Below are positions 7,481 to 42,298 of a stretch of 64,000 nucleotides of DNA, piece after piece. Position numbers and translations under genes: made by a program. The stretch's first letter is position 1, and every line of letters starts with the position of its first letter. Below the pieces are notes generated by a model. It saw only the letters and a list, made by a program, of their open reading frames with translations, ran no database searches and was not told where the DNA came from. The stretch covers positions 220,542,484-220,606,483 of the forward strand of contig CAXKWD010000001.1 of assembly GCA_964059195.1 (NCBI GenBank). The letters run 5' to 3'. This stretch comes from Ectobius pallidus (taxonomy: Eukaryota > Arthropoda > Insecta > Blattodea > Ectobiidae).

Positions 7481-7775
7481 GTAGACAGAGCAAGAAAGTA
7501 AGTAAGCATGCTAGGCATGTAGAACAGCTACTGCAAGCAGCAGGCAGACTTCCAAAGATTGCATTTCGTATAAGAATAACGTCCAGAATAGAGAGATACA
7601 TGTAGAAGATAAAAATTAATAATAAACTAATTTACAACAAAAATAACTGCGAAATAAATTAGATTTCCCTATTCAACCTGAAAATAAAACAAATTCCAGA
7701 AAAAGATGAGAACACGAGGGGGTTAATCTAAGAATTGTAAGAATTCTTGTCATAAACAATGTTTATAAAAACAAT

Positions 7776-7965
7776 AAGGCTCTCGTATGTCTTTATTATA
7801 ATCTAATCACATTTTATATTCCATTACAATACACTCCATTAATTTTTCAGTTTAATTTGTTTTTGATAATTCCGTAAAAGGTTGTGACTATCTAAGCCTC
7901 CAAGACTATTAAAATTCTGTTTTATTGTGAACTATGTGGCTTTGAACTTGCATAAATAAAAGACT
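7776..7965 (+). promoter_or_regulatory. Promoter of secreted-peptide gene 1
   Basis: This block is repeated at 14110-14330 and 16140-16345. All three share TGAACTATGTGGCTTTG (7928-7944 here) about 7-20 bases before a TATA box (CATAAATAAA, 7951-7960). Conservation over about 190 bp in paralogous copies suggests a common regulatory module. Which factor binds the shared word is unknown. Confidence 0.6.
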
Positions 7966-7980
7966 GTCGTCTTGAACGTC

Positions 7981-8039
7981 ACCACAGTTCCCCTGAATTC
8001 TCAAGTCTTCAGCGCCTACAGAAGAAGCAAAGCTTGATG
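7981..8039 (+). other. Exon 1 (mostly 5' UTR) of secreted-peptide gene 1
   Basis: About 20-30 bases after the TATA box begins a stretch matching 14352-14410 almost base for base. It ends AGCTTGATG before GTGAGT (donor at 8040). The exon therefore ends in ATG, and the next exon (13548) starts exactly at an ATG, so splicing gives ATGATG in frame. Either Met could start the protein. The transcription start is not defined. Confidence 0.6.
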
Positions 8040-8289
8040 GTGAGTGAAAATTCATCACAGCTATTTAATACTTAAGAGTTTCCATTATTATAAAGTAGTT
8101 ACATGAGGAAAATACAGAAATGCACATGAAAATACTGTTAACTACTACTGCACACTTCATACCACCTAGTATTTCGTTTCTATTGCTTAAGTATTAAGGC
8201 AGTTTTAAAATAGAGAGATTGTCCACCTTAGAACCCTTGTCGTTTCACCTAACCTAAAATTCAATAACTCATGCAGAACTAATAATGTT

Positions 8290-10608
8290 ATGCCCAAATA
8301 TATTAATATCAAGTGCAACAATCATAACAATGTAGCGGTAAAATCAGTGCAGCAAGCTAAACAATTATGGCTAAAAAATGAAATTAAATTTTTACATAAG
8401 AAGAAAGATTTTTTGAACAAGCAAGTTTACAACCTACATCTACTAGCTTCTAAGGAACTTAAACATCATTGGACCTATATTGAAAATGAAATACATATTA
8501 AATTGAATGCCGAACTAGATAGAAAATACCATAATATGAACAAAAAACTTGACAAACTTATAAATGAAAGAAACAACCTAACACGGAGCCATACGTACAA
8601 CGAACGGAAAACCCATGAAAACAAACAACACATATTCTACCCCAGACTGATCAACCTAACTAAAACTACATTCAATAAAGAGGAAGAAGCATTCTTACAG
8701 TTGGGCTACAAACATAACCTAAGGACAAACAACAAGCAAAAACTAATAGATAATATTATCATTGACGCAGAGGCAGCAGTATCAACATTGCATCCTGAAG
8801 ACCAAAACAATATAAGGCGGAAATTAGCCAACGAAATCAAAAAGACATATATTGACAATAAACAGTCCAACCCAACAACCAAACGAGACTTACTTACTTT
8901 AAATAATATCAACAAGAAACTGAAAGACAATGATATTACTCATGTAAAAGCTGATAAAGGTAATACAATAGTTCTATTAAATAAAAAAGACTATATAAAC
9001 AAAACAGTTGAGTTTATGAACAACAACAATATCGAAGTACTAAATAAAGACCCGACTGACAACTTTCAATCAGCTATCAAGAAAACAGTGAAAGAATCTG
9101 ACTTAATACTTAGTGACAAAGAAAGGAAGATATGTATAAACATGAATCCTAGAGCTCCGGAATTAAAAGCACAAATAAAAACACATAAAGAAAATAACCC
9201 GATAAGACCGGTGGTAAACTTTATAAGTGCACCTAGTTATAAGATCTCTAAAATAGTGGGTGGAATACTAAAACAAAAACTAGATCTTCCTAACAAGTAC
9301 AATGTAAAAAACTCAATTGAATTAGTTAACAAGATCAAAGACATCCACATCAACAAAGAAGATGCTATAATATCCCTAGACATTGCTAATTTATATACAA
9401 ATATACCAATAGATGACTCAATTAAAATAATAGAAGAAAAACTGGCTGAAAATGGGGAAAACATCAATATATCCAAACAGATAACATCGCTACTCAACAC
9501 TATACTACATCAAAATTACTTCAGATTCGACAACAAAATCTACATACAGAAAGAAGGTGTGGCGATGGGATCGCCTTTATCTGGTATCATAACAGAAGCC
9601 TATCTACAATACATTGAGAAAGAATATGTACAGGATATTATAACCAAATATAACATCACTACATATCAAAGGTACGTGGATGATATACTTTTAATATGTA
9701 ATAAGACTCAAATAGAGAATATCTTCCAAGAATTCAACAATATTAATAATTGCTTAAAATTTACAATCGAGAAAGAAGAGAATAATACCTTAAATTACTT
9801 GGACCTGAGCATAACAAAAAACAACAAGAAACTGGAATTCGGGATATTTAGGAAGAGTACATATTCTGACAACATTATCAACAAATCCTCTAATCACCCT
9901 AATAGTCATAAAATGTCTGCTCTAAACAGTATGATTCATAGACTGGTTAATATTCCCATGAATAAAACCAACTATAATAAAGAATACAGTACAATAATGA
10001 AAATAGCTGAAAATAACGGATATAGTAAATGGGTGGTTAGAAATATGGTTACTAAACATAAAGCGAAACTACACAGTAAACAAAACCCAATAAGCAAACT
10101 CACACCGATTAAAGAGAAAAATAATAACATAAAATTTGCTACATTTAATTACGTAGATAACAAGATACATGCAATTACAAAAATACTACGAAAAGAAAAT
10201 TTCAAAATTGCATACAGAACAAACCACAACCTAAAAAGAAAACTACATAACAACAACAATAACGATATAGACAAAATGGAAGGCAGCGGAATATATAAAC
10301 TAACATGCAATGACTGTAAAAAGGTGTACATAGGCCAAACAGGTAGGAAGTTCAAGCAAAGATTCAAGGAACATGTTAATGATTTCAGATATAATGGTAA
10401 TCGCTCATCATACGCTAAACATCTCCTTAATACTGGACATAGATTAGATAACATAGACAATACTTTAGAAATCCTCCATAATTATAAAAAAGGTAATAGA
10501 CTTAATATTCTAGAAAATCTTCAAATCTACAAAAATAAAAATAACATTCTAAACAAAACCACGATTGACCATAATCACCTGTTTGAACTCGCAACAACTG
10601 TGACCTAA
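8290..10608 (+). CDS. Penelope-like reverse transcriptase with GIY-YIG endonuclease
   Basis: One uninterrupted 772-residue frame. It copies element RNA into DNA at a nick made by its own endonuclease. A basic, Asn/Lys-rich N-terminal part (about 1-200) is followed by the reverse transcriptase: KADKGNTIVLL near 220, the catalytic-Asp motif SLDIANLYTNIP near 365, GVAMGSPLSG near 422, YVDD at 462-465 and NTLNYLDLSI after it. The C-terminal GIY-YIG nuclease has GIY at 667-669, a CxxC at 673-676, YIG at 680-682, then GRKFKQRFKEH and HLLNTGH, the Cys/His pattern typical of Penelope-like elements. RT plus C-terminal GIY-YIG defines this group. ATG at 8290 is the first in frame; codons are strongly A-rich. 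All catalytic motifs appear intact. Confidence 0.93.
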   Translation: MPKYINIKCNNHNNVAVKSVQQAKQLWLKNEIKFLHKKKDFLNKQVYNLHLLASKELKHHWTYIENEIHIKLNAELDRKYHNMNKKLDKLINERNNLTRSHTYNERKTHENKQHIFYPRLINLTKTTFNKEEEAFLQLGYKHNLRTNNKQKLIDNIIIDAEAAVSTLHPEDQNNIRRKLANEIKKTYIDNKQSNPTTKRDLLTLNNINKKLKDNDITHVKADKGNTIVLLNKKDYINKTVEFMNNNNIEVLNKDPTDNFQSAIKKTVKESDLILSDKERKICINMNPRAPELKAQIKTHKENNPIRPVVNFISAPSYKISKIVGGILKQKLDLPNKYNVKNSIELVNKIKDIHINKEDAIISLDIANLYTNIPIDDSIKIIEEKLAENGENINISKQITSLLNTILHQNYFRFDNKIYIQKEGVAMGSPLSGIITEAYLQYIEKEYVQDIITKYNITTYQRYVDDILLICNKTQIENIFQEFNNINNCLKFTIEKEENNTLNYLDLSITKNNKKLEFGIFRKSTYSDNIINKSSNHPNSHKMSALNSMIHRLVNIPMNKTNYNKEYSTIMKIAENNGYSKWVVRNMVTKHKAKLHSKQNPISKLTPIKEKNNNIKFATFNYVDNKIHAITKILRKENFKIAYRTNHNLKRKLHNNNNNDIDKMEGSGIYKLTCNDCKKVYIGQTGRKFKQRFKEHVNDFRYNGNRSSYAKHLLNTGHRLDNIDNTLEILHNYKKGNRLNILENLQIYKNKNNILNKTTIDHNHLFELATTVT

Positions 10609-10686
10609 AACATGCAACAAGTAAACAACCGGCATATACATTAGTACATCATCAGACATTGTATCTGTTGTGTCTCCAAGCTGAAC

Positions 10687-10728
10687 TGAAGATGATGCAA
10701 CTTGCATCGAAATGCATTTTCAAGTATT
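10687..10728 (+). ncRNA. Hammerhead-ribozyme-like motif at the 3' end of the Penelope-like element
   Basis: CTGAAGA is followed by a GATGC/GCATC stem with loop AACTT, then GAAA, then TGC...GCA (a possible stem III) and TC, the order of a hammerhead core. Published work reports such ribozymes in Penelope-like elements. Stem I is not obvious from the flanks, so the motif may be minimal or decayed. Confidence 0.45.
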
Positions 10729-10753
10729 AGACGCATCTGGGACCAAGAAGAAG

Positions 10754-10828
10754 TTTTATTAATTTGACAACAGTGTTTTTATTAATTTGACAACAGTGTT
10801 TTTATTAATTTGACAACAGTGTTTTTAA
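10754..10828 (+). repeat. Three-copy 23-bp tandem repeat
   Basis: TTTTATTAATTTGACAACAG plus TGT occurs three times head to tail in the 3' non-coding part of the Penelope-like element. Confidence 0.85.
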
Positions 10829-11289
10829 CGTGTGCTTATGCCTTCTATGGTATTTTATATTTTATAAAAGGCCCCAGATAAGTGAAACGACAAGGGTTCT
10901 AAGGTGGACAATCTCTCTATTTTAAAACCATTTTACCCTGTCTGAAAATGAAATTCATTAATAATTAAGGCAGTTTACATGGACAAATGTTCTAGCGATT
11001 TGAAAAAACCAGGAAACAACCTATGAAACAGGAATTTTGTCAACGCCTGGAGATTTGTGTATTTTTAGTTTACCTATAGCTGTTTCTACTTATGTTAGAG
11101 TTGATTCAGCAACCATCGGCTCTGCCGTGAATATTTCACTTTCTACACTTTGGACAACTCCATGTAAAAGTAGGGAAAAAAAGCGGACCGACTCTTGATG
11201 CCATCATTGTCCTTAAATATGTTTATTCTAGGTTGAAAACCATTCTTGAACTCATTTATTCCCTTGTAGAGATCCCTAACATTTATATA

Positions 11290-12330
11290 AAACATTTACT
11301 TACTTACTCAATGGCAATAGAAAATTCTTAAGCAAGCTAAAGGAATATTATCTATTTTATGGAACCCGAAGGTTCATTGCCACGCTTACCTGAGTCCGCC
11401 ATTCAACCCTATTCTGTGCTAACTCCTTCCAATCATCCCCCATAAATCCTACTTCCCATAAATCCGTTCTAAGATTGTCCTCCCACCTACGTCTAGGTCT
11501 TCCACGTGGTCGTTTCCCTTCGGGTCTCCCAGTCAATACTTTTGAGATATGTCTTTCCTCCCCATTGCGTGCAACATGTCCAGCCCATTTCATCCTTCGC
11601 GATTTAATTACCCTTACTATATGTGGTGATGCGTACAGGTCCTGAAGCTCATCGTTATGCAATTTTCTCCTGTCCCCATTTTCATCCCTCTTGGGCCCAA
11701 ATATTTTTCGAAGAACCCTGTTTTCAAAAACTCTCAGACTATGTTCTTCCTGATCAGTTAGCGAACATGTCTCACATCCATATAATACAACAGGCAGGAT
11801 AATAGTCTTATAAATCTTAATTTTTAGATTTCTGGACAGAAGACGAGACAATAAGAGTTTCTGAACTGCATAAAAACAAGCATTTCCTGATTTGAGTCTA
11901 CACTTAACTTCTGCCTTAATATTATTTGTATCTGTAATTACTGTTCCCAGATATTTGAATTCCTCCACTTGTTCAAACGATCTACCGGCTATTCTAATAT
12001 TTTGTGGCGCATTATTTTGACGTTCCATGACCATATACTTAGTTTTTCTCTGTATGTTTCCAACCCAACATTCCTGCAGGTATCGAAAAGACTTTCTGCA
12101 TTTCTCTCGATTGTGTTTACGTCATCGCCCAATAAGCAAACGTCGCGTCATCCGCATAAGCTAAAATCGGGTGACTACCATTTAATTCTAGGCCTACGTT
12201 GTTTTCCTGAACTTTCCTAATGGCGTATTCCAAACCGAAATTAAAAAGTAAAGGTGATAGTGCATCTCCTTGCTTCAAGCAGCTTCTAATGGAAAACCTA
12301 TCTGATATAAATTTCCCTAACCTGACTCTG
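11290..12330 (-). mobile_element. 5'-truncated LINE with reverse-transcriptase remnant
   Basis: On the - strand, starting near 12330, the frames read [34 protein letters not shown] and LAYADD (RT catalytic motif). After frame breaks comes a 225-residue open stretch (12034-11357) from EFKYLGTVI through ILPVVLYGCETCSLT, RKIFGPKRDENGD and GRPRRRWEDNLRTDL. The element ends in a (TTAC)n tail. The endonuclease half is absent, so it is dead. Further 3' fragments of the family lie at 6466, 49257 and 63121. It sits in intron 1 of secreted-peptide gene 1. Confidence 0.88.
11357..12034 (-). pseudogene. C-terminal part of a LINE reverse transcriptase
   Basis: The longest surviving frame (225 residues) of the truncated LINE, from the region after the YADD motif to the natural C-terminus (NLRVP). 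The N-terminal part of the RT is in other frames upstream (12040-12320). The internal ATG used here is not the original start. Confidence 0.8.
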
Positions 12331-12694
12331 CTATATAAAAAACATTACCTGGGATATTTTATTCGTATTCATTTCCGATTTTTCTAGATTGCATCAACTA
12401 CGGCAGAAGGGAACGTGGAGAGCTTTGCACGATAGAATCTTAGAGAAAATGAAATAACAACAGTTACCGGGACAAAAATGAAATAAGTGTGTCTTCAATG
12501 CACAATTGTCATAACAGGAGATATTATACCAACATCGGTCCATATTTTTCGTTAGTCCCTGATTCCAGGCTTGGCGAACATGGAGTTTAGAAAAGTCACG
12601 TCTCAGGAAAATGTCCAAAAAAAAAAAGTTACTTCGCTTTCAACAAATAACGAATAGCTACTGAGATCGCGGTTTGGGTATTTCCAATGTTGTG
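12331..12694 (+). other. Intron 1 sequence shared by the two peptide genes
   Basis: Several blocks match the intron of gene 2 at 16470-16815: TTTTTCTAG followed by ATTGCATCAACTACGG, CTTGGCGAACATGGA, AAAAGTCACGTCT, and GAGATCGCGGTTTGGGTATT. They show that the two genes arose by duplication of a segment including this intron. Confidence 0.65.
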
Positions 12695-13501
12695 CTAAAG
12701 CAACAAACACAGTATTCGAAGACTTTGCAACGTATGTAATAGGAATTAGAAAACAACAGGAGGTTGACAATGTCTAAAAACACCAGATTCGAGACAACCT
12801 AATTATGAGACGTATCTCAGGCGAAAGCTCAGACTCCTAGGATTAAACCGAGCACTACTATATGGGAAATAGTCTAAGTGCCCGGGTTGCTGTGGGAAAC
12901 TCTCTCAGCAGCCGATCAGATTGGGGTTTTGCGGGGTTTTTCCTCACTTATTAGGTGAATACCACATCGGAGAGACGACCCCCGACAGACAGATGACAAA
13001 ACACAGAGTTACACATTTCTATTAGTTCTATTACTGAAAGACATTCTTCTTATGTTGAGGATGTAATAGATTAGCCTATTGGGCAGCACTCACCACTGTT
13101 GAATGATCCTTCTGTGAAGCCGTTGTCAAAGGTTACTTAATCTTACGTGGAGCCTTCGTTTTCTTCATAAGATAATAAAATAATAAAACACATGCATAAT
13201 ATATAACACAAACACTAAAAATGTCAACTTCACAACAGAAACTACGACGTTTCGCGAGACAACATGAACGTCTCGCGTTTTCAAATGAGTCTTATTTTAG
13301 AGACGAGTGTTAAGTCGCGCAGTCTTTCCGAACGTCTAAATTTGACTGTTCTATTAGTGTTTAATCAAACAGCTGGATCACATTACCCACAAGCTTAAAG
13401 TACACAAGAGCGAAAACTAGAGCAATAGAACACAAGCGCCGGAAAATTGTTGGGACCGGAGTATGGTCAAGGGCTCCGGGGGCAGTGGAGGTCCAAAAAT
13501 A
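12695..13501. mobile_element. 0.8-kb insertion bracketed by a 13-bp direct repeat
   Basis: TTCCAATGTTGTG stands at 12682-12694 and again at 13502-13514, whereas gene 2 has it once before its own different insertion. The 807 bp between are therefore probably a retro-inserted element of unknown type. Positions 12890-12990 resemble SINE body sequence (GGGGTTTTGCGGGG). I see no coding capacity. Confidence 0.5.
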
Positions 13502-13547
13502 TTCCAATGTTGTGATACTAATACACATTGTATTATTGTTATTGCAG

Positions 13548-13614
13548 ATGAAGTTGGTACTACTGCTCTTTGTTTTGGTGGCCTGCATGGCTACTGGCTT
13601 CTGTAGTGAGGAGC
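13548..13614 (+). CDS. Secreted cysteine-rich peptide gene 1, signal-peptide exon
   Basis: After TTATTGCAG the exon begins exactly with ATG and encodes MKLVLLLFVLVACMATGFC then SEE: a basic Lys, a hydrophobic core of about 12 residues and a small-residue cleavage region, a clear secretory signal peptide. It ends in phase 1 before GTAAGT. The first 56 bases differ from gene 2 (17591) at one position. Exon 1 also ends in ATG, so the protein may start one Met earlier. Total protein is 56 residues (57 with the extra Met). Confidence 0.75.
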
Positions 13615-13693
13615 GTAAGTTGGTAATTGTCTTAACAGTTGGTCACAATGTGTAGATTTCATGCCAAGATGTAATCGCACTGTTTTCTTGCAG

Positions 13694-13797
13694 CTTCTCG
13701 AGGTTTATGTTGGAATCACGCTAACTGTTCTCCCGGGTACTACTGCAAGAAGATCTGGCCAATGCCAGTTGGTGTGTGCATGAAATATTTTCCGTAA
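13694..13797 (+). CDS. Secreted cysteine-rich peptide gene 1, mature-peptide exon
   Basis: It is joined across a 79-nt intron (TTTTCTTGCAG acceptor) and finishes the split Pro codon. It encodes PSRGLCWNHANCSPGYYC, then ten residues, then the last Cys and MKYFP, stop TAA. The mature peptide (about 34-37 residues) has four cysteines spaced C-x5-C-x5-C-x10-C, enough for two disulfides; a fifth Cys at residue 19 lies at the signal cleavage site. I do not recognise the family. Size, secretion and cysteines fit antimicrobial, venom-like or signalling peptides. The exon has little similarity to its counterpart in gene 2, although the introns and 3' UTRs match well. AATAAA follows at 13885-13890. Confidence 0.7.
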
Positions 13798-13884
13798 AAG
13801 ATATATGGAGCAGAGGACTTCCATGAAGAAGATATGGAGGCTTAGGATGGTCCGGTGCCATATTAGTACTGAGGCCACAATGTG

Positions 13885-13890
13885 AATAAA
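13885..13890 (+). terminator. Poly(A) signal of secreted-peptide gene 1
   Basis: AATAAA lies in a 3' UTR block (AATAAAGTCTCCACAGAGCA) shared with gene 2 at 17873. Confidence 0.6.
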
Positions 13891-14109
13891 GTCTCCACAG
13901 AGCAATGACAATCCACTGGTTATCATTTCTGCACCACCTTAGTCCATTCCTTCAAGTGGACATCATACTTAGCAAACACTCACCGCTGAATTGATGTTCA
14001 CTCCCTGGGCAATTGTGCTCTTCCAGGTCCTTCCAGATGACGTCATGGAAGGCTTTGCAATACCCCACAAAGGTCTTTCTTTCGTTCTGGTGATAATAGA
14101 TTTAATGAT

Positions 14110-14330
14110 ACTAATAAAATTTTATCAGGTTCTCGATATACCTTTATTTATCTGACTTGTCATAATTTATATCTCATTTTTAATGAACCAGATAATTATT
14201 ACATTATGCTTTCCAATTTAATTTAATTTTGATAATTGGCAAAGACGCTGTGATTAACTCAGCCACCAAGACTATTAAAATATCGTTTTAATGATGAACT
14301 ATGTGGCTTTGGTCTAGTTAGTATAAATAA
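14110..14330 (+). promoter_or_regulatory. Promoter of secreted-peptide gene 2
   Basis: It contains TGAACTATGTGGCTTTG (14295-14311) and TATAAATAA (14322-14330), as in gene 1. It is more diverged upstream than the copies at 7776 and 16140 are from each other. Confidence 0.6.
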
Positions 14331-14351
14331 AAGACTGTGGTCTTGAACGTC

Positions 14352-14410
14352 ATCACAGTTCTCCTGAATTCTCAAGTCTTCAGCGCATACAGAAGAAGCA
14401 AAGCTTGATG
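14352..14410 (+). other. Exon 1 (mostly 5' UTR) of secreted-peptide gene 2
   Basis: It nearly matches 7981-8039, including the terminal AGCTTGATG before a GTAAGA donor (14411). As in gene 1 it ends in ATG and would join the ATG at 17591. The conservation of this 5' exon contrasts with the divergent mature-peptide exon. Confidence 0.58.
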
Positions 14411-14611
14411 GTAAGAGAAAATGTATCACAGCCAGGGCCGTATTTCTAAATAGGCTAAGTAGGCTGCAACCTAGAGCGGCAAATTTTCAGGAGCGGCAGT
14501 TTGGCAATTTATTCAAAAGTTAAATGAAATATTTAAGAAATCTCGTAAGATAGCTATGTAAAATTGAACATGCAGATTACGTGGAGTGAGTTCTTTAGAG
14601 AAGTTTGTATA

Positions 14612-15432
14612 TACACCGTGTCCGGGAAAGACCTGACGAAAAAGAAATAATTATATATCAGAAACTATTACAGTTACTACCTCAGTATTTTCACAGTTAG
14701 AAAGACAAACTAAAAAAGTTTTGTTTTGTAGCATCCCGTAATGCGCATGAGCAGGCACATTGTTGTTGCACAAGGAGAAACGAAAAAAAAGCTTTTTCTG
14801 CGCAGCGTGTGTAGTCAGTCTTATTCTGAGAACTGGGAATGCAAGTTGTGCGTAGGCTACAACGTCGTTTCCAAACAGACAAAGGCCGAAATCCTCCCGC
14901 CCGAAACAGCATCCTTCATTGGCACAAGCAATTTCTGGAGATAGGTAATGTTGAGTCACAGTGGGGAAAGGCAAAGAAATCGCGCATAAATGACAATGAC
15001 ATTGAAAGTGTACGGGCTGCTTTTGTCAGAAGCCCGAGGAAATCCATTTGTGAGGCGGACAACTGCAAATGCCAAAATTCACAGTCCATGGGAGAGAAGG
15101 GCCTACACCATGGCCACCAAGGTCACCTGACATGACCCTAGTGGATTTCTTTCTCTGGGGATTTGTGAAAGACAAAGTGTATCGCACGCCTGTGACCGAT
15201 AATGCAGATTTGCGTGGCCGAATCTACGATGCAATAGCACTAGTCACACCGGAGATGCTTTCGCGTGTGTGGCACGAAATTGAGTATCGGGCCATAAATG
15301 ATGCTCACATAGAGGCTTATTAAAATTCATCGTGTTTCTCTTTGTAACCGTGAAAACATCACGTCAATAAATGCAATAGTTTCAGATATATAATTATTTA
15401 TTTTTCGTCAGGTCTTTCCCGGACACCCTGTA
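14612..15432 (+). mobile_element. IS630/Tc1-mariner-type transposon, internally deleted
   Basis: Inverted ends of about 50 bp (TACACCGTGTCCGGGAAAGA at left; complement of TACAGGGTGTCCGGGAAAGA at right) continue into ACCTGACGAAAAA. Inside are pieces of a transposase: a helix-turn-helix-like part (QRRFQTDKGRNPPARNSIL..WHKQF) at about 14840-15060 and the catalytic C-terminus (WPPRSPDMTLVDFFLWG, PEMLSRVWHEIEYR) at 15100-15323. The middle of the catalytic domain is missing. Confidence 0.8.
15069..15323 (+). pseudogene. Transposase C-terminal fragment
   Basis: An 84-residue frame that includes the WPPRSPD(M)T..DFFLWG segment with an acidic residue of the DDE/D catalytic triad and the family's C-terminal end. 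It is joined abruptly to N-terminal sequence, so it is not functional. Confidence 0.8.
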
Positions 15433-15837
15433 TTTCAACAATTAAACCAGTAATTAACTACATTTTGTGTAATTTCATTTCACCGTGTAGGACAACTTAA
15501 TTCAATTACGCAAAAGATAATCATTAGCATTAAAATATAAAAATATGTTTAAAATAGTGATCACTGATCTCCAAGAACCAAATAATTAATTTCGAAACCC
15601 ATTTCATTTTTAACGAATCTTAAAAGAAGTAGGGTACCAGAGATACAGATTGTTATTATGTAAACCATTAAAATGGTAGTTTTATCTAAACTAAATGAAC
15701 TTTATGCTTAAAATATATGAAAACACTAATGAATTCTATCTGAAAAACAAATGTATTAAGGAAATATGAACTATAGAGGGGGCGGCAAATGGACTTAGCC
15801 TATAGGCGGCATAGGCCTACTCTTAAATCCGGCCCTG

Positions 15838-16139
15838 ATCACAAGTATTTCCATTTTCAAAATAATACAGAACTGTACATGAAATCCATGACTAACTTTG
15901 ATATATTAATTCAAATGTACAAACATATACTTGTATTACTTGTGATAATTTTCTGTGTAAATGAGGTAGTGACTGGATGAAGAGGGTTGATACATAAAAT
16001 AAAAGAAGCAGGTAAAAGTGGAATTAGCGATTCTATTGCCACGAACACCTCGCTTGAACATGTGTGGCTAAATTAAAGACTTGTAAGCTTCCTCAATATT
16101 CCACACAGTTCTTACCAATGTATTCTTGTTATAACGATG
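15838..16139 (+). other. Continuation of intron 1 of gene 2
   Basis: It aligns loosely with gene 1 intron sequence at about 8055-8150 (shared TTTCCATT, ACAGAA, ACATGAAA words). No other feature is seen. Confidence 0.4.
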
Positions 16140-16345
16140 TTGATAAAATATTTTAAGGCCCTCGTTATGTCTTTATTATAATCTAATCACATTTTATATT
16201 CCATTACAATACACTTCATTAATTTTCCAGTTTAATTTGTTTTTGATAATTCCGTAAAAGGTAGTGCTTATCTAAGCCTTCCATAATATTAAAGTATTGC
16301 TTTAATTATGAACTATGTGGCTTTGGTTTAGTATAAAATAGAGGA
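16140..16345 (+). promoter_or_regulatory. Third copy of the secreted-peptide promoter
   Basis: It closely matches 7776-7960 (shared TCTTTATTATAATCTAATCA and ATTCCGTAAAAGG), with TGAACTATGTGGCTTTG at 16309-16325 and TATAAAATA at 16332-16340. Similarity stops just after GAGGACTG, before exon 1 would begin. It may be a nonfunctional duplicate or an alternative promoter for gene 2. Confidence 0.55.
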
Positions 16346-16819
16346 CTGGTTTGTATCACTGAAATACTAAAGGTATTTTTAATGGATAAATGGCTCTAAC
16401 GAATTTGATATAAAGTCAAATATCGAAATTTCTATTAAAGAATAGTAAAACAAGAATACCTCTAGTGGTACTTAAGTCCTGTTCATTTTCCATTTTTCTA
16501 GGTTACCTCAACTACGGAACAAGGGTATGCCTACATAAAATCTTCAATATAAAATTGAAAAGATAATCAAAATGAACATTTTTTTGTCCATCATACTTCT
16601 TGTTATCAGTACAGAAAAGATATAAATGTGTCTGTAATACAAAATAACAGAATGTGCAATGCCGGGTACAGCAGCTAGTAAAATATATATGAAAGAAGTT
16701 GGAGTCACAAAACGATCCCAGGGTTGGCGAACATGGATTTTTAAAAGTCACGTCTGTGGTTACAATAAGTAATAACTATTGAGATCGCGGTTTGGGTATT
16801 TCCAATGTTGTGTAATAAT

Positions 16820-17558
16820 TTGACTTCGGACTTTTAGGTCGCTAAAAATGCTGTTTTAGGTACCTAAAGTAGGCACTAAAAATTGGAAAATAGGTTCTAA
16901 AAATCGTAAAATAGTCTCTTATAAAATCGTTAAGTTGCTAATATTCTCCGAAATATCTCAATTGCAATGCAGAATATTATATTTATTGAAGCCATCATTA
17001 ATCAATAATCTTGATAAAACACAGATATAGGCCTATGATACACAGAATTATATAGGCCTATTACTAGGGCCTGTATTACTTCCATAACAGTGAAAACCTA
17101 ATCCCTGCGCCCAGAAGCTACGCACGCTAGCACATTTAACCCCTTGTATCCCTCAGTGATTCAGAGAACTTTTTTTTTTTTTTCTGGATGTGGAAGTCGG
17201 GAGAAAAACACTACATTTTCTTGGGAATTCCAAGGTATTTTTCTCCTGAGGACAAAACATTCCTTTCTATTTAACCACGTCACAAATGTGTCAGGTACTG
17301 CACATTCCGAGCTAAACATTTAGTACGAACTGAAAATAAGTGCTAGAATTTATAACAAAAAAGTAACTTATTTTGAACTTTAGAGGAAAAAACAAGCAAA
17401 AAAGGCAATATTAGGCTCTTACGTAAAAATAGGTTGTTTTAGGTCCTATAAAAGTATCAGTTTTAGGCATAGTCACTTATGAAACATGAATATACGAGTA
17501 TTCGTCCATATATCACTTAAGGATTAAAATAGGTTTTTACCTAAAATCCGAAGTCTAG
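16820..17558. mobile_element. Non-autonomous element with GACTTCGGACTTTTAGGT ends
   Basis: Inverted ends GACTTCGGACTTTTAGGT and ACCTAAAATCCGAAGTC are flanked by TAATAAT on both sides (16813-16819 and 17559-17565), hAT-like. The orthologous place in gene 1 lacks it. The interior is AT-rich with many TAGGTnCTA words and no coding capacity. A 71-bp relative lies at 58488-58558. Confidence 0.62.
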
Positions 17559-17590
17559 TAATAATACACATTGTATTACTGTTATTGCAG

Positions 17591-17654
17591 ATGAAGTTGG
17601 TACTACTGCTCTTTGTTTTGGTCGCCTGCATGGCTACTGGCTTCTGTCGTGGGT
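17591..17654 (+). CDS. Secreted cysteine-rich peptide gene 2, signal-peptide exon
   Basis: ATG directly follows the TTATTGCAG acceptor. The exon encodes the same MKLVLLLFVLVACMATGFC signal peptide as gene 1, then RG and a split codon before GTAAGT. It is three bases shorter than in gene 1, keeping phase 1. Confidence 0.75.
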
Positions 17655-17733
17655 GTAAGTTTGCAATTTTCTTAGCAATTGGTCACAATCTGTAGATTTC
17701 ATGTTAAGATGTAATCGGACTGTTTTCTTGCAG

Positions 17734-17873
17734 CTATAGCATGTTGTATGGATGACGACTGCCCGGACGATTTCTGGTGCAACTTAAACATTGGAGAATG
17801 TAAGAAAAATACAAGGCAGGCTTTTACTAAGGAGCAACTGAGCCGCCATATTGGTATTGAGACCTCAATATGA
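17734..17873 (+). CDS. Secreted cysteine-rich peptide gene 2, mature-peptide exon
   Basis: It follows a 79-nt intron with the same ends as in gene 1. It encodes SIACCMDDDCPDDFWCNLN, then IGEC, then a 23-residue basic/polar tail ending ETSI. Cysteines run CC-x4-C-x5-C-x6-C, keeping the central C-x5-C of gene 1 while almost every other residue differs; the peptide is acidic where that of gene 1 is basic. The stop TGA (17871-17873) overlaps the poly(A) signal AATAAA. The tail is encoded by sequence that is 3' UTR in gene 1, so the reading frame was extended at the 3' end. Total 67 residues. Function unknown; same options as gene 1. Confidence 0.7.
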
Positions 17874-17878
17874 ATAAA
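17873..17878 (+). terminator. Poly(A) signal of secreted-peptide gene 2
   Basis: AATAAA starts on the last base of the TGA stop codon and lies within the 3' block shared with gene 1. Confidence 0.55.
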
Positions 17879-17949
17879 GTCTCCACAGAGCAATGACAAT
17901 CCACTTGTTATAATTTCTTCACCACTCTTGCTCATTCGGGCATTCTTGT

Positions 17950-19362: not shown

Positions 19363-19459
19363 TATCTAATATAAATTACTATCGATATTTCACATCAATC
19401 AAAGGAGAAAATTTCGCGAATTCAACCTGTCGAGACATCTGTCAGTGTAATAGGCTACA

Positions 19460-19866
19460 CCCGATTGAAAATTATCCGCAGCTTGACGCACGTGATTGAA
19501 AACTGTCTGCAGCTTGTAGCACCTGATTGAAAACTGCAGCTTGTAGCACCTGACTGAAAACTGTCTGCAGCTTGTAGCACCTGACTGAAAAATGTTTGCA
19601 GCTTGTAGCACCTGATTGAAAATTGTCTGCAGCTTGTAGCACCTGACTGAAAACTGTCTGCAGCTTGTAGCACCTGACTGGAAAATGTTTGCAGCTTGTA
19701 GCACCTGATTGAAAATTGTCTGCAGCTTGTAGCACTAAACTGCCTGCAGTTTGTAGCACCTGATTAAAAAAACTTTCCGCAGCTTGACGCACCTGATTCA
19801 AGATTGTCTGCAGCTTGTAGCACCTGATTGAAAATTGTTTGCAGCTTGTCGCACCTGACTGAAACT
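19460..19866. repeat. 31-bp minisatellite
   Basis: About 13 head-to-tail units of roughly 31 bp, each built on GCAGCTTGTAGCACCTGA(T/C)TGAAAA. One unit is shortened to about 23 bp and others differ by a few bases. Because 31 is not a multiple of three and the units lack stops, three - strand frames stay open across it; these are not genes. Confidence 0.92.
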
Positions 19867-20149
19867 ATCTTTATCTTTCCGCACTTAATTTTCAATCTTG
19901 TTGTATTTTATTAGCAAATGTTATCTTCACCCACAACGGTAATCGACAACAAAAAAGGGTAAAATTATTATTTTTCTTCACAAATGTAATGGTTACCAAG
20001 AAATGACAAAATATTAATTTTCCCCATGAAAGTAATAAATATCAACAAAGATAAAAAAGGTCATTTACCCCCAAAGATCTTGCATGAACAATCCACTAAG
20101 CACAGAGTTTTAGTATACACATAGACTGATACTATGTGCAGTGGTCAAT

Positions 20150-30449: not shown

Positions 30450-33020
30450 TGAGATGACAGAGTCTCACTGAGCGAGGGAGGAGAATGAAGAACACAAGCA
30501 TATGACAACAGAGAGTTAAATAATAAGCAAAAGGAAGTACAAGACTATATATATATTTATTAGATATCACAGACAGACACAGGTAAATACACAACAGGAC
30601 GAGAAAATACACAATGCTCAGATCAGATAGTTTAAGAGACTTCATAATAACTCGCATAAACAGAATGGTATAGAATACTGATAGCGACCAAATAACCTAA
30701 AACTCATTATACCTTTTAAGTGCAGAATATATTCTCAGGAAAATAGGTGTTAAGTTCCAAATACACATAATTCTTTAAAGAGTCACTACTGTAAAATTGT
30801 TATAATCAGAGTACCTTTAAATCTCAACGACATGAGTCGTATGAAAGAAATTTACTAAGTCCGACAGCATATGGAATGCAAAATTCTCAATTAATAATAT
30901 GCCAAAATTTAAATACCAAAAGAGTATCAAAAGGGAAAAATCAGAAATATATTGTCCTAAATCTGGCTTGATAAGGTCAGAAAGGCGAGCACGAAAGATT
31001 TAATATAGCAACTTTCAAGCAGAAGGCATGACTATAAGAAAACTTTCATAACGGAAACATATCGTAATATACACAGAATAAAATCTATTCTCAAGACGTT
31101 AAATTTTAACTTCAATTTGGAAAAGCAACTTGACTGACAATTAATGAGAAATATAATTCAGAAGAAAATTAAGTTAAATTTACCAGAAGGAAAATATCTA
31201 AGAATGAGCAATATAAAATGTATCACACTCTGTCATAAGCTAGCACTTCAATAAGGAACTATATTGAATTTCAAAATACAAATTATGTTATGACGGGCAA
31301 AATATGAAAACACTTCGAAACTGCAACTGACACTGGATAGATACCATAAGAAGCCTGCTTAATTTCAGAATAATCTTACCTTCCTAATAGGAGCAAACTC
31401 ATCTGCAGCCATACGAATTACCTTTACACTAGGCCAGCATTAAATTTAACTTGGACAACAAATTATATTAGCATGGCAGAATATGAAAGCTTGGTATAAG
31501 AAACTATATGAAAAAACCTTGCAAAGAATAGGCCAAATTTAACCCTCCAGAATGCAAATATCTTGTACAGTTACAATAAGAAGTCAGCTTAATTTCAGAA
31601 TAAATCCTACTTTCCTTATAGGAACTAACTCAACTGCAGCCATACAAATGACCTTTACACTTGGCCAGCACCAAATTTAACTTTCTTCAATACAAATTAT
31701 TTTAGCATGGGCAAAATATGAAAAGATTAGAATAAGAAACTGTATGAAAAATCTTGTAATGACTAGGCCAAATTTAACTTTCCAAAATGCAATTATCTTG
31801 TACAATTACAATAAGAAGTCAGCTTAATTTCAGAATAAATCCTACTTTCCTTATAGGAGCTAACTCAACTGCAGCCATACAATGACCCTTACACTTGGCC
31901 AGCACTAAATTTAACTTCCACCATACAAATTATTTTAGCATGGGCAAATATGAAAAGATTAGAATAAGAAACTGTATGAAAAATCTTGTAATGACTAGGC
32001 CAAATTTTAACTTTCCAAAATGCAATTATCTTGTACAATTACAATAAGAAGTCAGCTTAATTTCAGAATAAATCCTACTTTCCTTATAGGAGCTAACTCA
32101 ACTGCAGCCATACAATGACCCTTACACTTGGCCAGCACTAAATTTAACTTCTTCAATACAATAGGCCTGATAAACTATAACAAGAAGAATTTTGTGAATC
32201 GGTTTATATGGAAAATATTTTATACATGGCAGATTACTTGAACTCTGATACTTTAACTTCAGACGGAAATCACGTGACTCGTGTTCTAGACAAGATGTAA
32301 CTCTCAAACTCAAAACCCAGTAAAACAAGATATTAGCAAGATAGAGAAACATGAACAATTAACTAAATCCATAGCATACAATGTCTTCCATAAATAACAT
32401 TAACTATGAGTTTCATTCGTATCAATATAAAACTTGTTGCATTCTAAGCACCGCTAAGTGTACCAATTTTTAATTTATTCATGTGACAACATGGCCGCCT
32501 AACGTTCGTTTTAACACCAGATTTTTACTTGATAATCAGAATGCATACTTCCTAAGTTATGCCCAATAATTGGTTCCATAGTAATTTCAATAAATGGCCT
32601 AGGACGAAGTCTGAACAACTCCTCTCTTATTACATACAAGGAATGTAATTCCCACATGACATTTACAGGCGATACAAAAATGGCGATCATCATACTAACA
32701 AGAAACTTAAAGCTTGGTAAAAGAATATAATTAAATAGGTGGCGATTCCAACCCGCATAAAGATAGTAGAAACTTACATTTTGAATTAGAGTTCACGTCC
32801 GAATGCACATACCTCACCGATGAACCCAGCAAGCAAGGGCACAATACGTCAAAGCAACACCACACTACATGGCAATCTCGGTTCTAACTGAGTAACCTCA
32901 ATGGCTGACTCGCACAAGACCACGGGCAGAACTCCGCGCATGCGTAGAAAACAACTTCAAGGGAGAGAAAAGGTGAACTAGGCGCGCTCTAACAACGTAA
33001 CTTAACAACAAAATGTCTCA
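30450..33020 (-). repeat. LTR 1 (2571 bp)
   Basis: Differs from the other two at the outer edge (ACAGAGTCTCAC instead of ACAGAAGCTCAC). Contains 3-4 tandem units of about 234 bp (31270-32150). Confidence 0.8.
31270..32150. repeat. 234-bp tandem repeat inside the LTR
   Basis: Units marked by AATAAGAAG(T/C)C(A/T)GCTTAATTTCAG at about 31348, 31578, 31812 and 32046 (spacing 230-234). Each has CAACTGCAGCCATAC and CTTGGCCAGCA. The same block is in LTR 2 (about 35768-36648) and LTR 3 (about 40265-41145). Confidence 0.85.
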
Positions 33021-34947
33021 ATCTCCCCCTTGCGAAAAAAGAAAGTGAAAGCAGAATTACAAGGATATCGCCATAAATGTCTGATGGGAACCACAAACAC
33101 AAGAATCAAATAGATATACTAAATCATACACTAACACAACCCTGAATATACAATACACAAAGTATATAGCACCATAAAATATGCAGTCCTTACATCTAAC
33201 CTTGGAATCTTAAAGTCTTAAACTTAGCAAGTCTTTCAAAAAAAAAAAAATCATATGAGTTTAATAAGATTATAGTTCATTAGCTTGGGTACCATAAATC
33301 GATTCTGTAGGATTGAATCTGATCCAAGTAAATTGCAGAAAGTCTATAGAATAGAATTCAAATATAGTTAGGCGCTATACATTGTGGTTCACTACCATCA
33401 TTGATAGTTCGTTCAACTCTCATTCAATAAACAATAATTATTTACATGATCCTGAATACTCTGGAAATGTCTATGGAAGATAGTTCAATTTTAGGTTTCT
33501 CAAACGACGAATATACACAATTAATTTATACAAGTTGTAGGTTATAAAAATTAACTCCTTGTTGCACCTTGCAAACTTGGATAACGCCTTCTTCGGAGAA
33601 TTGCTTATCATGGAATGGACGCACAAGAGCCACATAATAGAACATATGCGGAGAGCACAAACACTGTAAGGGGTCTTACCACTTCAGGAAAACACTCTCA
33701 CCAAAATTAGACGTATTTTGAATAATCATCTCAGATGCCACTGGATATCTGCTCACAGAAGGTCAAGAAGTGCTGGAAGGAGTGGCTCCGGCCACCCATT
33801 CAGGTGACAAAACAAGCTGGGGCTGCAGTCCCCATGAGCCAGACCAACAGGCAAAGACGTGCGGATCCTCACGCCGAAACCAGAAGCAGGAACAGAAGAC
33901 CAGGCATGCATGGTGCATGCTCTCACAGGAACAGCATAGCGTAGAAATCCACTAGGCTCAAGGCATCACATCCATCAGAGGCATCAGACAGCATAGTACA
34001 AGTCAATTTGAAGGAAAAGGACAGAGCTCATGTCCAACCTTCCATCATATCAATGCAGCGAAGTCGACTTCAAAATATACTTTGTTAATTCATATATAGT
34101 GATTTCCATCTCTTGTCGTCTGTGACATCTTCATATTTGTGCATATTATGTCTTATCGGGGGACAACCCGATTAACTTGTCTTGTACTTGAGTGAATACT
34201 TATCAAGCTTATTATAGTCAAGATTATTATTATTAAGCTTGAAATAGAACCGTACATTTTAATGTTTGCCTTATCAACAACTCGACGAAAGGCACGCCAT
34301 GAGCACCCCACTCCACCGGGATCCACCGAGAGGCGTACAAAGGACGTGAACAATAAGCCTCATACATAAAAATCATTCATGGGTAATTGGAATCACCACC
34401 ACCATAATAATAAATAACTTTTTCAACAAATACCCTATTAAAATACCAAGCCATAAATCCATATAAAAAAATTAAGGTGCATATACTACACACCAAGTTA
34501 CAACACATAAATTGTATATACATAATTCACAATAGCACCAGTATATAATACGAATGAAACTCAAAATACTTAATTTCCAAACATCATAATTTAATTAACC
34601 TAATTTCCTGAATAGAGAAGGACTCAAGGTAAGTTGGATGAGCCCAAAGCAAAACATTACTAGCCAAGCCTTGAGAAAGAGGGAACAATATCCAGAACAC
34701 AGTCTTACTAATAATAATAATAGCTACAATCGGAATCACGCTTTATAAATAGAAATGCAAAAGAAGCCACGAGGATATACCTAGCGAAAGACCATTCGGA
34801 ACATACATGTGTACAAACTAAATGAAAACTGTACTGAATAACAGAGAACAAAGAATGATAAGTGGACGTGTAAAACACGGCCACCCTCCCCTACGGATGA
34901 AAAGAAGCTACAACCAGAGGAGAAGATCGAAGAGCAATGGCTACCAC
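33021..34947 (-). other. Internal region 1 of the LTR composite, non-coding
   Basis: It starts (+ strand) with ATCTCCCCCTT, the complement of a polypurine tract, and ends with the complement of the primer-binding site. Short frames at 33735-33955 and 34153-34353 show no gag, protease, RT or integrase motifs. A 13-A run (33238-33250) is one base longer than in internal region 2. Confidence 0.7.
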
Positions 34948-37518
34948 TGAGATGACAGAAGCTCACTGAGCGAGGGAGGAGAATGAAGAACACAAGCATA
35001 TGACAACAGAGAGTTAAATAATAAGCAAAAGGAAGTACAAGACTATATATATATTTATTAGATATCACAGACAGACACAGGTAAATACACAACAGGACGA
35101 GAAAATACACAATGCTCAGATCAGATAGTTTAAGAGACTTCATAATAACTCGCATAAACAGAATGGTATAGAATACTGATAGCGACCAAATAACCTAAAA
35201 CTCATTATACCTTTTAAGTGCAGAATATATTCTCAGGAAAATAGGTGTTAAGTTCCAAATACACATAATTCTTTAAAGAGTCACTACTGTAAAATTGTTA
35301 TAATCAGAGTACCTTTAAATCTCAACGACATGAGTCGTATGAAAGAAATTTACTAAGTCCGACAGCATATGGAATGCAAAATTCTCAATTAATAATATGC
35401 CAAAATTTAAATACCAAAAGAGTATCAAAAGGGAAAAATCAGAAATATATTGTCCTAAATCTGGCTTGATAAGGTCAGAAAGGCGAGCACGAAAGATTTA
35501 ATATAGCAACTTTCAAGCAGAAGGCATGACTATAAGAAAACTTTCATAACGGAAACATATCGTAATATACACAGAATAAAATCTATTCTCAAGACGTTAA
35601 ATTTTAACTTCAATTTGGAAAAGCAACTTGACTGACAATTAATGAGAAATATAATTCAGAAGAAAATTAAGTTAAATTTACCAGAAGGAAAATATCTAAG
35701 AATGAGCAATATAAAATGTATCACACTCTGTCATAAGCTAGCACTTCAATAAGGAACTATATTGAATTTCAAAATACAAATTATGTTATGACGGGCAAAA
35801 TATGAAAACACTTCGAAACTGCAACTGACACTGGATAGATACCATAAGAAGCCTGCTTAATTTCAGAATAATCTTACCTTCCTAATAGGAGCAAACTCAT
35901 CTGCAGCCATACGAATTACCTTTACACTAGGCCAGCATTAAATTTAACTTGGACAACAAATTATATTAGCATGGCAGAATATGAAAGCTTGGTATAAGAA
36001 ACTATATGAAAAAACCTTGCAAAGAATAGGCCAAATTTAACCCTCCAGAATGCAAATATCTTGTACAGTTACAATAAGAAGTCAGCTTAATTTCAGAATA
36101 AATCCTACTTTCCTTATAGGAACTAACTCAACTGCAGCCATACAAATGACCTTTACACTTGGCCAGCACCAAATTTAACTTTCTTCAATACAAATTATTT
36201 TAGCATGGGCAAAATATGAAAAGATTAGAATAAGAAACTGTATGAAAAATCTTGTAATGACTAGGCCAAATTTAACTTTCCAAAATGCAATTATCTTGTA
36301 CAATTACAATAAGAAGTCAGCTTAATTTCAGAATAAATCCTACTTTCCTTATAGGAGCTAACTCAACTGCAGCCATACAATGACCCTTACACTTGGCCAG
36401 CACTAAATTTAACTTCCACCATACAAATTATTTTAGCATGGGCAAATATGAAAAGATTAGAATAAGAAACTGTATGAAAAATCTTGTAATGACTAGGCCA
36501 AATTTTAACTTTCCAAAATGCAATTATCTTGTACAATTACAATAAGAAGTCAGCTTAATTTCAGAATAAATCCTACTTTCCTTATAGGAGCTAACTCAAC
36601 TGCAGCCATACAATGACCCTTACACTTGGCCAGCACTAAATTTAACTTCTTCAATACAATAGGCCTGATAAACTATAACAAGAAGAATTTTGTGAATCGG
36701 TTTATATGGAAAATATTTTATACATGGCAGATTACTTGAACTCTGATACTTTAACTTCAGACGGAAATCACGTGACTCGTGTTCTAGACAAGATGTAACT
36801 CTCAAACTCAAAACCCAGTAAAACAAGATATTAGCAAGATAGAGAAACATGAACAATTAACTAAATCCATAGCATACAATGTCTTCCATAAATAACATTA
36901 ACTATGAGTTTCATTCGTATCAATATAAAACTTGTTGCATTCTAAGCACCGCTAAGTGTACCAATTTTTAATTTATTCATGTGACAACATGGCCGCCTAA
37001 CGTTCGTTTTAACACCAGATTTTTACTTGATAATCAGAATGCATACTTCCTAAGTTATGCCCAATAATTGGTTCCATAGTAATTTCAATAAATGGCCTAG
37101 GACGAAGTCTGAACAACTCCTCTCTTATTACATACAAGGAATGTAATTCCCACATGACATTTACAGGCGATACAAAAATGGCGATCATCATACTAACAAG
37201 AAACTTAAAGCTTGGTAAAAGAATATAATTAAATAGGTGGCGATTCCAACCCGCATAAAGATAGTAGAAACTTACATTTTGAATTAGAGTTCACGTCCGA
37301 ATGCACATACCTCACCGATGAACCCAGCAAGCAAGGGCACAATACGTCAAAGCAACACCACACTACATGGCAATCTCGGTTCTAACTGAGTAACCTCAAT
37401 GGCTGACTCGCACAAGACCACGGGCAGAACTCCGCGCATGCGTAGAAAACAACTTCAAGGGAGAGAAAAGGTGAACTAGGCGCGCTCTAACAACGTAACT
37501 TAACAACAAAATGTCTCA
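34948..37518 (-). repeat. LTR 2 (2571 bp), shared by both units
   Basis: It serves as the right LTR of the first unit and left LTR of the second. It has the same length and ends as LTR 3. Confidence 0.8.
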
Positions 37519-39444
37519 ATCTCCCCCTTGCGAAAAAAGAAAGTGAAAGCAGAATTACAAGGATATCGCCATAAATGTCTGATGGGAACCACAAACACAA
37601 GAATCAAATAGATATACTAAATCATACACTAACACAACCCTGAATATACAATACACAAAGTATATAGCACCATAAAATATGCAGTCCTTACATCTAACCT
37701 TGGAATCTTAAAGTCTTAAACTTAGCAAGTCTTTCAAAAAAAAAAAATCATATGAGTTTAATAAGATTATAGTTCATTAGCTTGGGTACCATAAATCGAT
37801 TCTGTAGGATTGAATCTGATCCAAGTAAATTGCAGAAAGTCTATAGAATAGAATTCAAATATAGTTAGGCGCTATACATTGTGGTTCACTACCATCATTG
37901 ATAGTTCGTTCAACTCTCATTCAATAAACAATAATTATTTACATGATCCTGAATACTCTGGAAATGTCTATGGAAGATAGTTCAATTTTAGGTTTCTCAA
38001 ACGACGAATATACACAATTAATTTATACAAGTTGTAGGTTATAAAAATTAACTCCTTGTTGCACCTTGCAAACTTGGATAACGCCTTCTTCGGAGAATTG
38101 CTTATCATGGAATGGACGCACAAGAGCCACATAATAGAACATATGCGGAGAGCACAAACACTGTAAGGGGTCTTACCACTTCAGGAAAACACTCTCACCA
38201 AAATTAGACGTATTTTGAATAATCATCTCAGATGCCACTGGATATCTGCTCACAGAAGGTCAAGAAGTGCTGGAAGGAGTGGCTCCGGCCACCCATTCAG
38301 GTGACAAAACAAGCTGGGGCTGCAGTCCCCATGAGCCAGACCAACAGGCAAAGACGTGCGGATCCTCACGCCGAAACCAGAAGCAGGAACAGAAGACCAG
38401 GCATGCATGGTGCATGCTCTCACAGGAACAGCATAGCGTAGAAATCCACTAGGCTCAAGGCATCACATCCATCAGAGGCATCAGACAGCATAGTACAAGT
38501 CAATTTGAAGGAAAAGGACAGAGCTCATGTCCAACCTTCCATCATATCAATGCAGCGAAGTCGACTTCAAAATATACTTTGTTAATTCATATATAGTGAT
38601 TTCCATCTCTTGTCGTCTGTGACATCTTCATATTTGTGCATATTATGTCTTATCGGGGGACAACCCGATTAACTTGTCTTGTACTTGAGTGAATACTTAT
38701 CAAGCTTATTATAGTCAAGATTATTATTATTAAGCTTGAAATAGAACCGTACATTTTAATGTTTGCCTTATCAACAACTCGACGAAAGGCACGCCATGAG
38801 CACCCCACTCCACCGGGATCCACCGAGAGGCGTACAAAGGACGTGAACAATAAGCCTCATACATAAAAATCATTCATGGGTAATTGGAATCACCACCACC
38901 ATAATAATAAATAACTTTTTCAACAAATACCCTATTAAAATACCAAGCCATAAATCCATATAAAAAAATTAAGGTGCATATACTACACACCAAGTTACAA
39001 CACATAAATTGTATATACATAATTCACAATAGCACCAGTATATAATACGAATGAAACTCAAAATACTTAATTTCCAAACATCATAATTTAATTAACCTAA
39101 TTTCCTGAATAGAGAAGGACTCAAGGTAAGTTGGATGAGCCCAAAGCAAAACATTACTAGCCAAGCCTTGAGAAAGAGGGAACAATATCCAGAACACAGT
39201 CTTACTAATAATAATAATAGCTACAATCGGAATCACGCTTTATAAATAGAAATGCAAAAGAAGCCACGAGGATATACCTAGCGAAAGACCATTCGGAACA
39301 TACATGTGTACAAACTAAATGAAAACTGTACTGAATAACAGAGAACAAAGAATGATAAGTGGACGTGTAAAACACGGCCACCCTCCCCTACGGATGAAAA
39401 GAAGCTACAACCAGAGGAGAAGATCGAAGAGCAATGGCTACCAC
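37519..39444 (-). other. Internal region 2 of the LTR composite, non-coding
   Basis: Near-identical to internal region 1 apart from one A missing from the homopolymer at about 37736. No coding capacity. Confidence 0.7.
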
Positions 39445-42015: not shown

Positions 42016-42298
42016 AAGGGAAAATGTCTGTCCGTCTGTCCGTGTGTCTGTACGCGCGAAAACTCAAATACGCTTTATCGGATTTTCATGAAACTTGTTA
42101 TACGCATTTATAACGTCCACGGGAAGTATCCTATTGATATTGGACCAAATCGGTTGACGGGTACCGGAGTAAAGCCCAATTTAGTGCCTATTTTACGGTA
42201 ATATATTAGAAAGAATTTATGAAATGCAAATCAGTTCTCATGACAACATTGTTTTACAGTGTTCATATACGGCTTTGGAAGTTGCAACACAGTTAGCT

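Follow-up and report, generated by a model that had tools for sequence, protein, structure and literature searches.

Genes in which alike introns flank unlike mature exons are already known in kind, from snake three-finger toxins and from conotoxins. In the snake genes, the pattern called ASSET combines introns that are more than 85% similar with radically different exon segments, and the cited section of that work doubts that point mutation alone was the cause (PMC2711939). Among conotoxins, A-superfamily toxins of Conus striatus with different cysteine scaffolds share more than 84% intron identity, and the cited passages place point mutations and trinucleotide insertions and deletions chiefly in the mature exon (PMC3862624). 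For the insect Blattella germanica, the antimicrobial families named in the excerpted part of the source are defensin, drosomycin, termicin, attacin-like and blattellicin, the blattellicins being Glx-rich with an attacin C domain (PMC9369362). Here we analyzed a window of 64 kb from Ectobius pallidus (contig CAXKWD010000001.1, positions 220,542,484 to 220,606,483), in which two gene units lie in tandem on the forward strand. Both look like working paralogous genes, and their predicted products are small secreted peptides in which four cysteines occupy equivalent places. Where introns are conserved and the exons beside them radically different, positive selection is the usual reading; at this locus, in an insect lineage not known for venom, silent sites offer a simple way to test selection against exchange or conversion. 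The explanation that we favour, and to which we give about an even chance, is that the mature exons are old and divergent and that gene conversion or exchange has kept the scaffold around them alike. If true, such a combination of old cores and young scaffold would bear on how toxin or antimicrobial exons get replaced while the introns stay the same.

Compared with the described systems, the pair shares with ASSET three-finger toxins the conserved signal exon and introns, the radical exon differences and the small, disulfide-rich secreted products. The snake genes, however, carry several alternative segments within exons II and III, whereas here nearly the whole mature exon is affected, and many snake genes are known as against the single pair (two genes in the window) seen here (both comparisons within the cited section of PMC2711939). 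The combination by which ASSET is recognized, that is conserved introns and signal exon with radically different mature segments, was found at this locus as well, as a likeness of pattern and not of homology. Three-finger toxins differ from the peptides studied here in both fold and cysteine pattern. As in conotoxins, signal and mature parts occupy separate exons, but the Conus introns exceed 3 kb while intron 2 here has 79 nucleotides (nt), most conotoxins have a pro-region, and two of the four shared cysteine codons here differ silently (conotoxin features as given in the cited passages of PMC3862624). In mussel myticin-C, too, the signal peptide is least variable and the mature domain more so, with somatic recombination or gene conversion invoked, yet the nucleotide diversity of about 0.05 in its mature part lies far below the difference found here (cited excerpt of PMC3164099). 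The Blattella germanica families resemble the present case as expanded secreted defence peptides of a related insect for which gene conversion was considered, but the present peptides have four cysteines at even spacing and no Pfam match that passed the cut-off (family features as in the cited part of PMC9369362).

A mosaic of conserved and diverged blocks

The first-pass annotation of this DNA had described tandem secreted-peptide paralogues whose mature part is far more different than their intron and untranslated regions (UTRs), and this was borne out when the two genes were compared block by block. Splice sites of both gene models were assigned by the GT/AG rule together with conservation between the copies, each unit having a promoter, exon 1, a signal exon, intron 2 and a mature exon. 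Shared promoter words, exon 1 and signal exon had also been claimed, and were confirmed. From the TATA-like word through exon 1, which holds 5' UTR with an ATG at the donor (7952–8039 in gene 1 and 14323–14410 in gene 2, with a GT donor in both copies), the genes differ at 4 of 88 positions, compared with 23 of 108 in the promoter directly 5' of the TATA-like word (P 0.0007; copy A, 7844–7951, and copy B of gene 2, 14210–14322, which aligns to copies A and C). The final 32 nt of intron 1 show 2 differences. Exon 2 (13548–13614 in gene 1, with GT/AG borders, and 17591–17654 in gene 2, assigned by its match to gene 1) encodes the signal peptide and the first mature residues, and its signal codons 1–19 differ at 1 of 57 positions. 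Intron 2, of 79 nt in both genes (13615–13693 and 17655–17733), was said in the first-pass annotation to hold about 10 differences by eye and has 9. A conserved block of 92 nt at the 3' end (13857–13948, with AATAAA at 13885, and 17845–17936, with AATAAA at 17873 overlapping the stop codon) has 13 differences. Measured against shuffles, all six shared blocks (promoter, exon 1, end of intron 1, signal codons, intron 2 and 3' UTR) had alignment scores with z values of 11–22, and none of 500 shuffles did as well.

The coding parts of exon 3 (13694–13797 in gene 1, stop at 13795–13797; 17734–17873 in gene 2, stop at 17871–17873) behaved quite differently. As DNA, exon 3 up to about the fourth cysteine (Cys4) was equalled by 88 of 500 shuffles (z 1.0), and the stretch from Cys4 to the UTR block (13783–13856 versus 17802–17844) by 54 of 500 (z 1.4). 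With gap-permissive scoring the whole exon-3 stretch slightly surpassed shuffled sequence (12/500 as good), while the part up to Cys4 did not (74/1000 as good). The divergence is not confined to exon 3: the rest of exon 2, already coding for mature peptide (10 versus 7 nt), has 3 differences in 7 nt and a 3-nt gap, which is too short to test (155/500 shuffles score as well), and beyond the gene 1 stop codon the unalignable zone continues for 59 nt of non-coding DNA (13798–13856), where alignment was no better than with shuffles. When exon 3 was anchored at its cysteines, 23 of 54 nt (18 codons) differed, a larger share than in intron 2 (9/79; Fisher P 6e-5) or in a longer intron 1 piece (63/293; P 0.0018); using the 13 ungapped codons alone, 18 of 39 nt differed (P 5e-5 and 0.0023, respectively). 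Since that intron 1 piece (12355–12700 versus 16469–16820) has 112 gap columns in addition to its 63 differences, intron 2 (Fisher P 0.053 against it) sits at the conserved end of the non-coding DNA and understates the background divergence. The piece nevertheless aligned with a score of 92.9 versus –20.6 ± 5.3 for shuffles. The locus is thus a mosaic with sharp borders, in which blocks of 86–98% identity adjoin a stretch that aligns no better than shuffled sequence.

The mature peptides and the relatedness of their exons

In both genes an ATG ends exon 1 and another opens exon 2, and spliced precursors would therefore read MMKLV, with probable lengths of 57 residues for gene 1 and 68 for gene 2. 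The mature exons encode C-x5-C-x5-C-x10-C in gene 1 and C-x5-C-x5-C-x6-C followed by a basic tail in gene 2, this tail running into the block that is UTR in gene 1. The earlier view that the two align only at C-x5-C was right insofar as the mature DNA is barely or not above shuffles, but the shared core is larger, namely C-x5-C-x5-C-x(10 or 6)-C. Likewise, the description of one product as basic and the other as acidic agrees with net charges of +2 (gene 1) and –2 (gene 2), the latter combining –5 in the cysteine core with +3 in the tail. Judged by their architecture (a leader, small size, cysteines in pairs), both peptides would most likely serve as secreted effectors in defence or in a gland.

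The two exons 3 have the same frame, splice phase and C-x5-C-x5-C spacing, and a pattern of C-x5-C-x5-C-x(4-12)-C occurs at two places in the six frames of the window, both of them being these exons. With the cysteines anchored, the 14 non-cysteine codons matched at 21 of 42 nt, versus a permutation mean of 12.1 (P 0.0023). At the protein level the alignment was marginal (P 0.053), and among shuffles of the gene 2 core 5.2% contained C-x5-C-x5-C and 1.6% gave a comparable four-cysteine pattern. On these comparisons the two exons are probably homologous but old. Their gap lengths of 3, 6 and 12 nt were rejected as evidence, being multiples of three simply because both frames had been anchored at the cysteines. 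We also rejected an origin of exon 3 by inversion or simple shift, as local alignments in forward, reversed and reverse-complemented orientation were no better than shuffles (P 0.92, 0.79 and 0.56).

Silent sites and the age of the mature exons

Acceleration of amino acid change alone would be expected to leave the silent sites about as similar as intron 2. Across the 18 anchored codons, matches numbered 14 at first, 10 at second and 7 at third positions. The residue was kept in 6 of the 18 codons, and in 3 of those 6 by a different codon, these silent differences affecting two of the four shared cysteine codons and the shared glycine codon. Simulations via transition matrices were evaluated on the condition that no more than 7 of 18 residues had been kept. 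Three or more silent changes among conserved residues then arose in 0.5–1.3% of replicates at a distance d of 0.12 (omega 3–100; at omega 1 no replicate satisfied the condition), in 1.0–1.9% at d 0.15 (omega 3–100) and in 2.7–4.4% at d 0.25. Once a low third-position identity was required as well, the figures were at most 0.9, 1.5 and 3.1%, respectively.

Codon likelihoods, calculated for the one gene pair over 13–18 codons with the cysteines kept fixed, pointed in the same direction. Holding exon 3 at the intron 2 distance of d 0.12, with the best omega and kappa 2, cost 18.6, 10.7 and 6.4 in 2dlnL for the alignments of 18, 14 and 13 codons, and with kappa 4 it cost 14.4, 8.6 and 4.8. At d 0.25 with kappa 2 the cost was 12.4, 8.2 and 5.3. 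When the distance was left free, the best omega was 0.2–0.7 at d of at least 1.5, near saturation, while distances held at 0.12–0.25 (18 codons, kappa 2) led to a best omega of 3–100 with a worse fit. These results consistently suggest an old split with omega below 1, at a strength that depends on the alignment and that a single pair cannot settle. As regards the accelerated evolution proposed in the first-pass annotation, the divergence of the mature part stands, while simple positive selection since duplication appears weakened as its explanation by the silent changes, the 7/18 third positions and the free-fit omega.

Weighing the explanations

Under the explanation favoured here, the split between the two mature exons would be much older than the similarity now seen around them. 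The flanking sequence would have been kept or made alike through gene conversion or unequal exchange between the tandem copies, while selection for two different peptides would have kept the cores from homogenization. In an equivalent variant, a more distant paralogue would have supplied a mature segment by exchange. The inclusion of 59 nt of non-coding gene 1 DNA in the diverged zone was counted in favour of old cores. The uneven divergence of the flanks (4/88 versus 23/108) fits patchy homogenization, but it also fits constraint. Several points weigh on the other side. The low flank divergence may come from constraint instead of conversion, and the comparison covers two members, whereas a third would be needed to reveal a donor exon or a tract of conversion. 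The short diverged end of exon 2 lies across a conserved intron from exon 3, so that a single clean swap of exons would not suffice, and flank conversion and segment exchange are indistinguishable in these data. The calculations comprised 13–18 codons, the 18-codon alignment having been chosen to pair identical residues, and several of the best fits lay at the limit of the distances scanned (d 4), near saturation. With 13 ungapped codons and kappa 4 the preference dropped to a 2dlnL of 4.8 at d 0.12, and the 10 ungapped non-cysteine codons alone gave permutation P values of 0.087 over all positions and 0.019 over first positions.

Accelerated evolution after a recent duplication, in which strong positive selection changed the mature exon in place as introns and UTRs drifted slowly, would account for the coincidence of the divergence with mature peptide on either side of intron 2, including the last 7–10 nt of exon 2, and it accords with the omega of 3–100 obtained once exon 3 is held at d 0.12–0.25 (18 codons, kappa 2) as well as with a similar conotoxin pattern, where positively selected sites fall mostly in the mature exon (as stated in the cited part of PMC3862624). 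We nonetheless find it unlikely, though far from negligible, in view of the rarity of three or more silent changes in the simulations (0.5–1.3% at d 0.12, 2.7–4.4% at d 0.25) and the reach of the diverged zone 59 nt into the gene 1 UTR. Another idea is that unrelated DNA was captured by the scaffold as exon 3 of one gene, with cysteines shared by chance, an origin that had been named as a refutation of the initial proposal. Shuffles do equal the exon 3 DNA up to Cys4 (74/1000; 88/500), the protein alignment reaches just P 0.053, and C-x5-C-x5-C appears in 5.2% of gene 2 core shuffles. Capture is argued against by the weak codon-level homology (permutation P 0.0023), and in addition frame, splice phase and cysteine spacing agree, the four-cysteine pattern appears nowhere else in the window, and it arose in 1.6% of gene 2 core shuffles, so that we hold this origin to be improbable.

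Two further explanations were weighed. Hypermutation targeted to the mature exon has been proposed for the toxins of cone snails and spiders and is discussed in the cited passages of PMC3862624 and PMC4029134. It would raise silent and replacement changes alike, so that silent divergence should be elevated in the exon and nowhere else, as observed. We think it very improbable: the codon conservation that it invokes was not seen, two of four shared cysteine codons being different, the cysteine-codon part has no direct evidence according to the excerpted text of PMC4029134, and a mutator that halts at an intron border has no basis that we could cite. Alternatively, the genes could be ordinary old duplicates, with exon 3 giving their true age and with intron 2, exon 1 and the 3' UTR block conserved for function in splicing or RNA stability. 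Consistent with this, divergence is higher in the intron 1 piece (63/293, plus 112 gap columns) and in the promoter (23/108), which are likewise homologous non-coding DNA, and intron 2 against the intron 1 piece gave P 0.053. Intron 2 was, however, not unusually structured as RNA (z –0.7 and –1.5), the intron 1 piece aligns far above shuffles, which exon 3 does not, and exon 3 is the more different of the two (P 0.0018), leaving this account with the slightest of chances in our judgement.

Searches for a peptide family

The family was not recognized in the libraries searched, and the earlier suggestion that it might be undescribed stands only in that sense. In Pfam, the precursors (56 and 67 residues) had no match above cut-off, with one sub-threshold match each (DUF7107, E 0.2, and late nodulin, E 0.023), and for the mature parts there was a sub-threshold GULLO2-like match for gene 1 (E 0.033) and none for gene 2. 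Insect defensins, drosomycins and termicins have six or more cysteines in a CS-alpha-beta pattern. Their Pfam models matched neither peptide, and such an arrangement was not found by counting either: after residue 19 of the 56- and 67-residue forms there are 4 (gene 1) and 5 (gene 2) cysteines, or 5 and 6 if cleavage precedes the cysteine at that point, an alternative whose spacing was compared by eye. Six P2X receptor sequences from PDB matched gene 1 at E 2–3e-4 with the signal peptide in the aligned part, and this relationship was rejected as chance; gene 2 found nothing better than E 0.14 in PDB. NCBIfam gave P2X below cut-off for gene 1 (E 0.11) and nothing for gene 2. No protein among 5.8 billion shared three 5-residue words with the pair. 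Control searches with the receptor and Penelope-like frames described below gave no indication that the protein database includes the proteome of this species, so that the orphan status is provisional. Three peptide strings had no occurrence in 5.39 million open papers. We tentatively propose, as a possibility that we consider doubtful in its entirety, an undescribed insect family of four-cysteine secreted peptides with a conserved cassette of leader, intron and UTR that stays alike between tandem genes, inside which ancient, divergent mature exons were retained or exchanged; this would be a venom-style exon replacement in an insect without recognized venom, with a cargo older than its cassette at silent sites.

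Promoter copies and neighbouring features

A third promoter-like copy, C, lies within gene 2 intron 1 (16122–16348, forward strand), with 85.5% identity to 7743–7966 and 78% to 14210–14337. Identities among the copies were about 91% for A and C (7786–7944), 84–85% for A and B and 78% for B and C. Three promoter copies, two coding bodies and these unequal identities make it clear that the locus was rearranged. The likeness of copy C breaks off about 15 nt after the TATA-like word begins, without a recognizable exon 1. It retains a good TATA-like word (TATAAAATA) and could drive an alternative first exon, which is conceivable because exon 2 has its own ATG. A loose-pattern scan, giving raw counts, found kappaB-like words upstream of copy A (7422), in gene 1 intron 1 (11522 and 12894) and, as a perfect GGGAATTCC, at 17223 in gene 2 intron 1, and no such word close to copies B and C within the scanned stretches.

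Both first introns contain putative mobile-element sequence. Gene 1 intron 1 includes an open frame of 799 residues (8209–10608, forward strand) of a Penelope-like retroelement, whose best relative, among 8000 candidates sharing most words, is 52% identical. Several of its relatives carry reverse-transcriptase and GIY-YIG domains, and a Pfam scan of the frame itself found no family above cut-off. It is followed by three copies of a 28-nt repeat with a spacing of 23 nt (10754–10827), and by eye a stretch near 8212–8252 recurs inverted near 10890–10925. In gene 2 intron 1, an element with 100-nt inverted ends that are 83% complementary (14611–15433) resembles the remnant of a mariner-type transposon.

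Elsewhere in the window, an Rfam scan at the gathering threshold gave one tRNA-family match (49877–49949); ARAGORN found none. An ionotropic-receptor-like open reading frame on the reverse strand (55530–57134) has eight relatives, the five named ones all being from Blattella germanica at 30–32% identity, and a Pfam Lig_chan match just below cut-off. Three tandem units of about 4.5 kb (30450–43942) represent either a recent expansion or an assembly effect, since units 1 and 2 share 99.9% identity across 4498 nt and, among the three top pieces listed, the best one from unit 3 matches both over 2572 nt at 99.9–100%. A minisatellite with units of about 31 nt follows the second gene (19445–19900), and an astacin-type metalloprotease exon (Pfam Astacin, E 2.5e-8, above cut-off) lies upstream of the first, at 1205–1567 on the forward strand.

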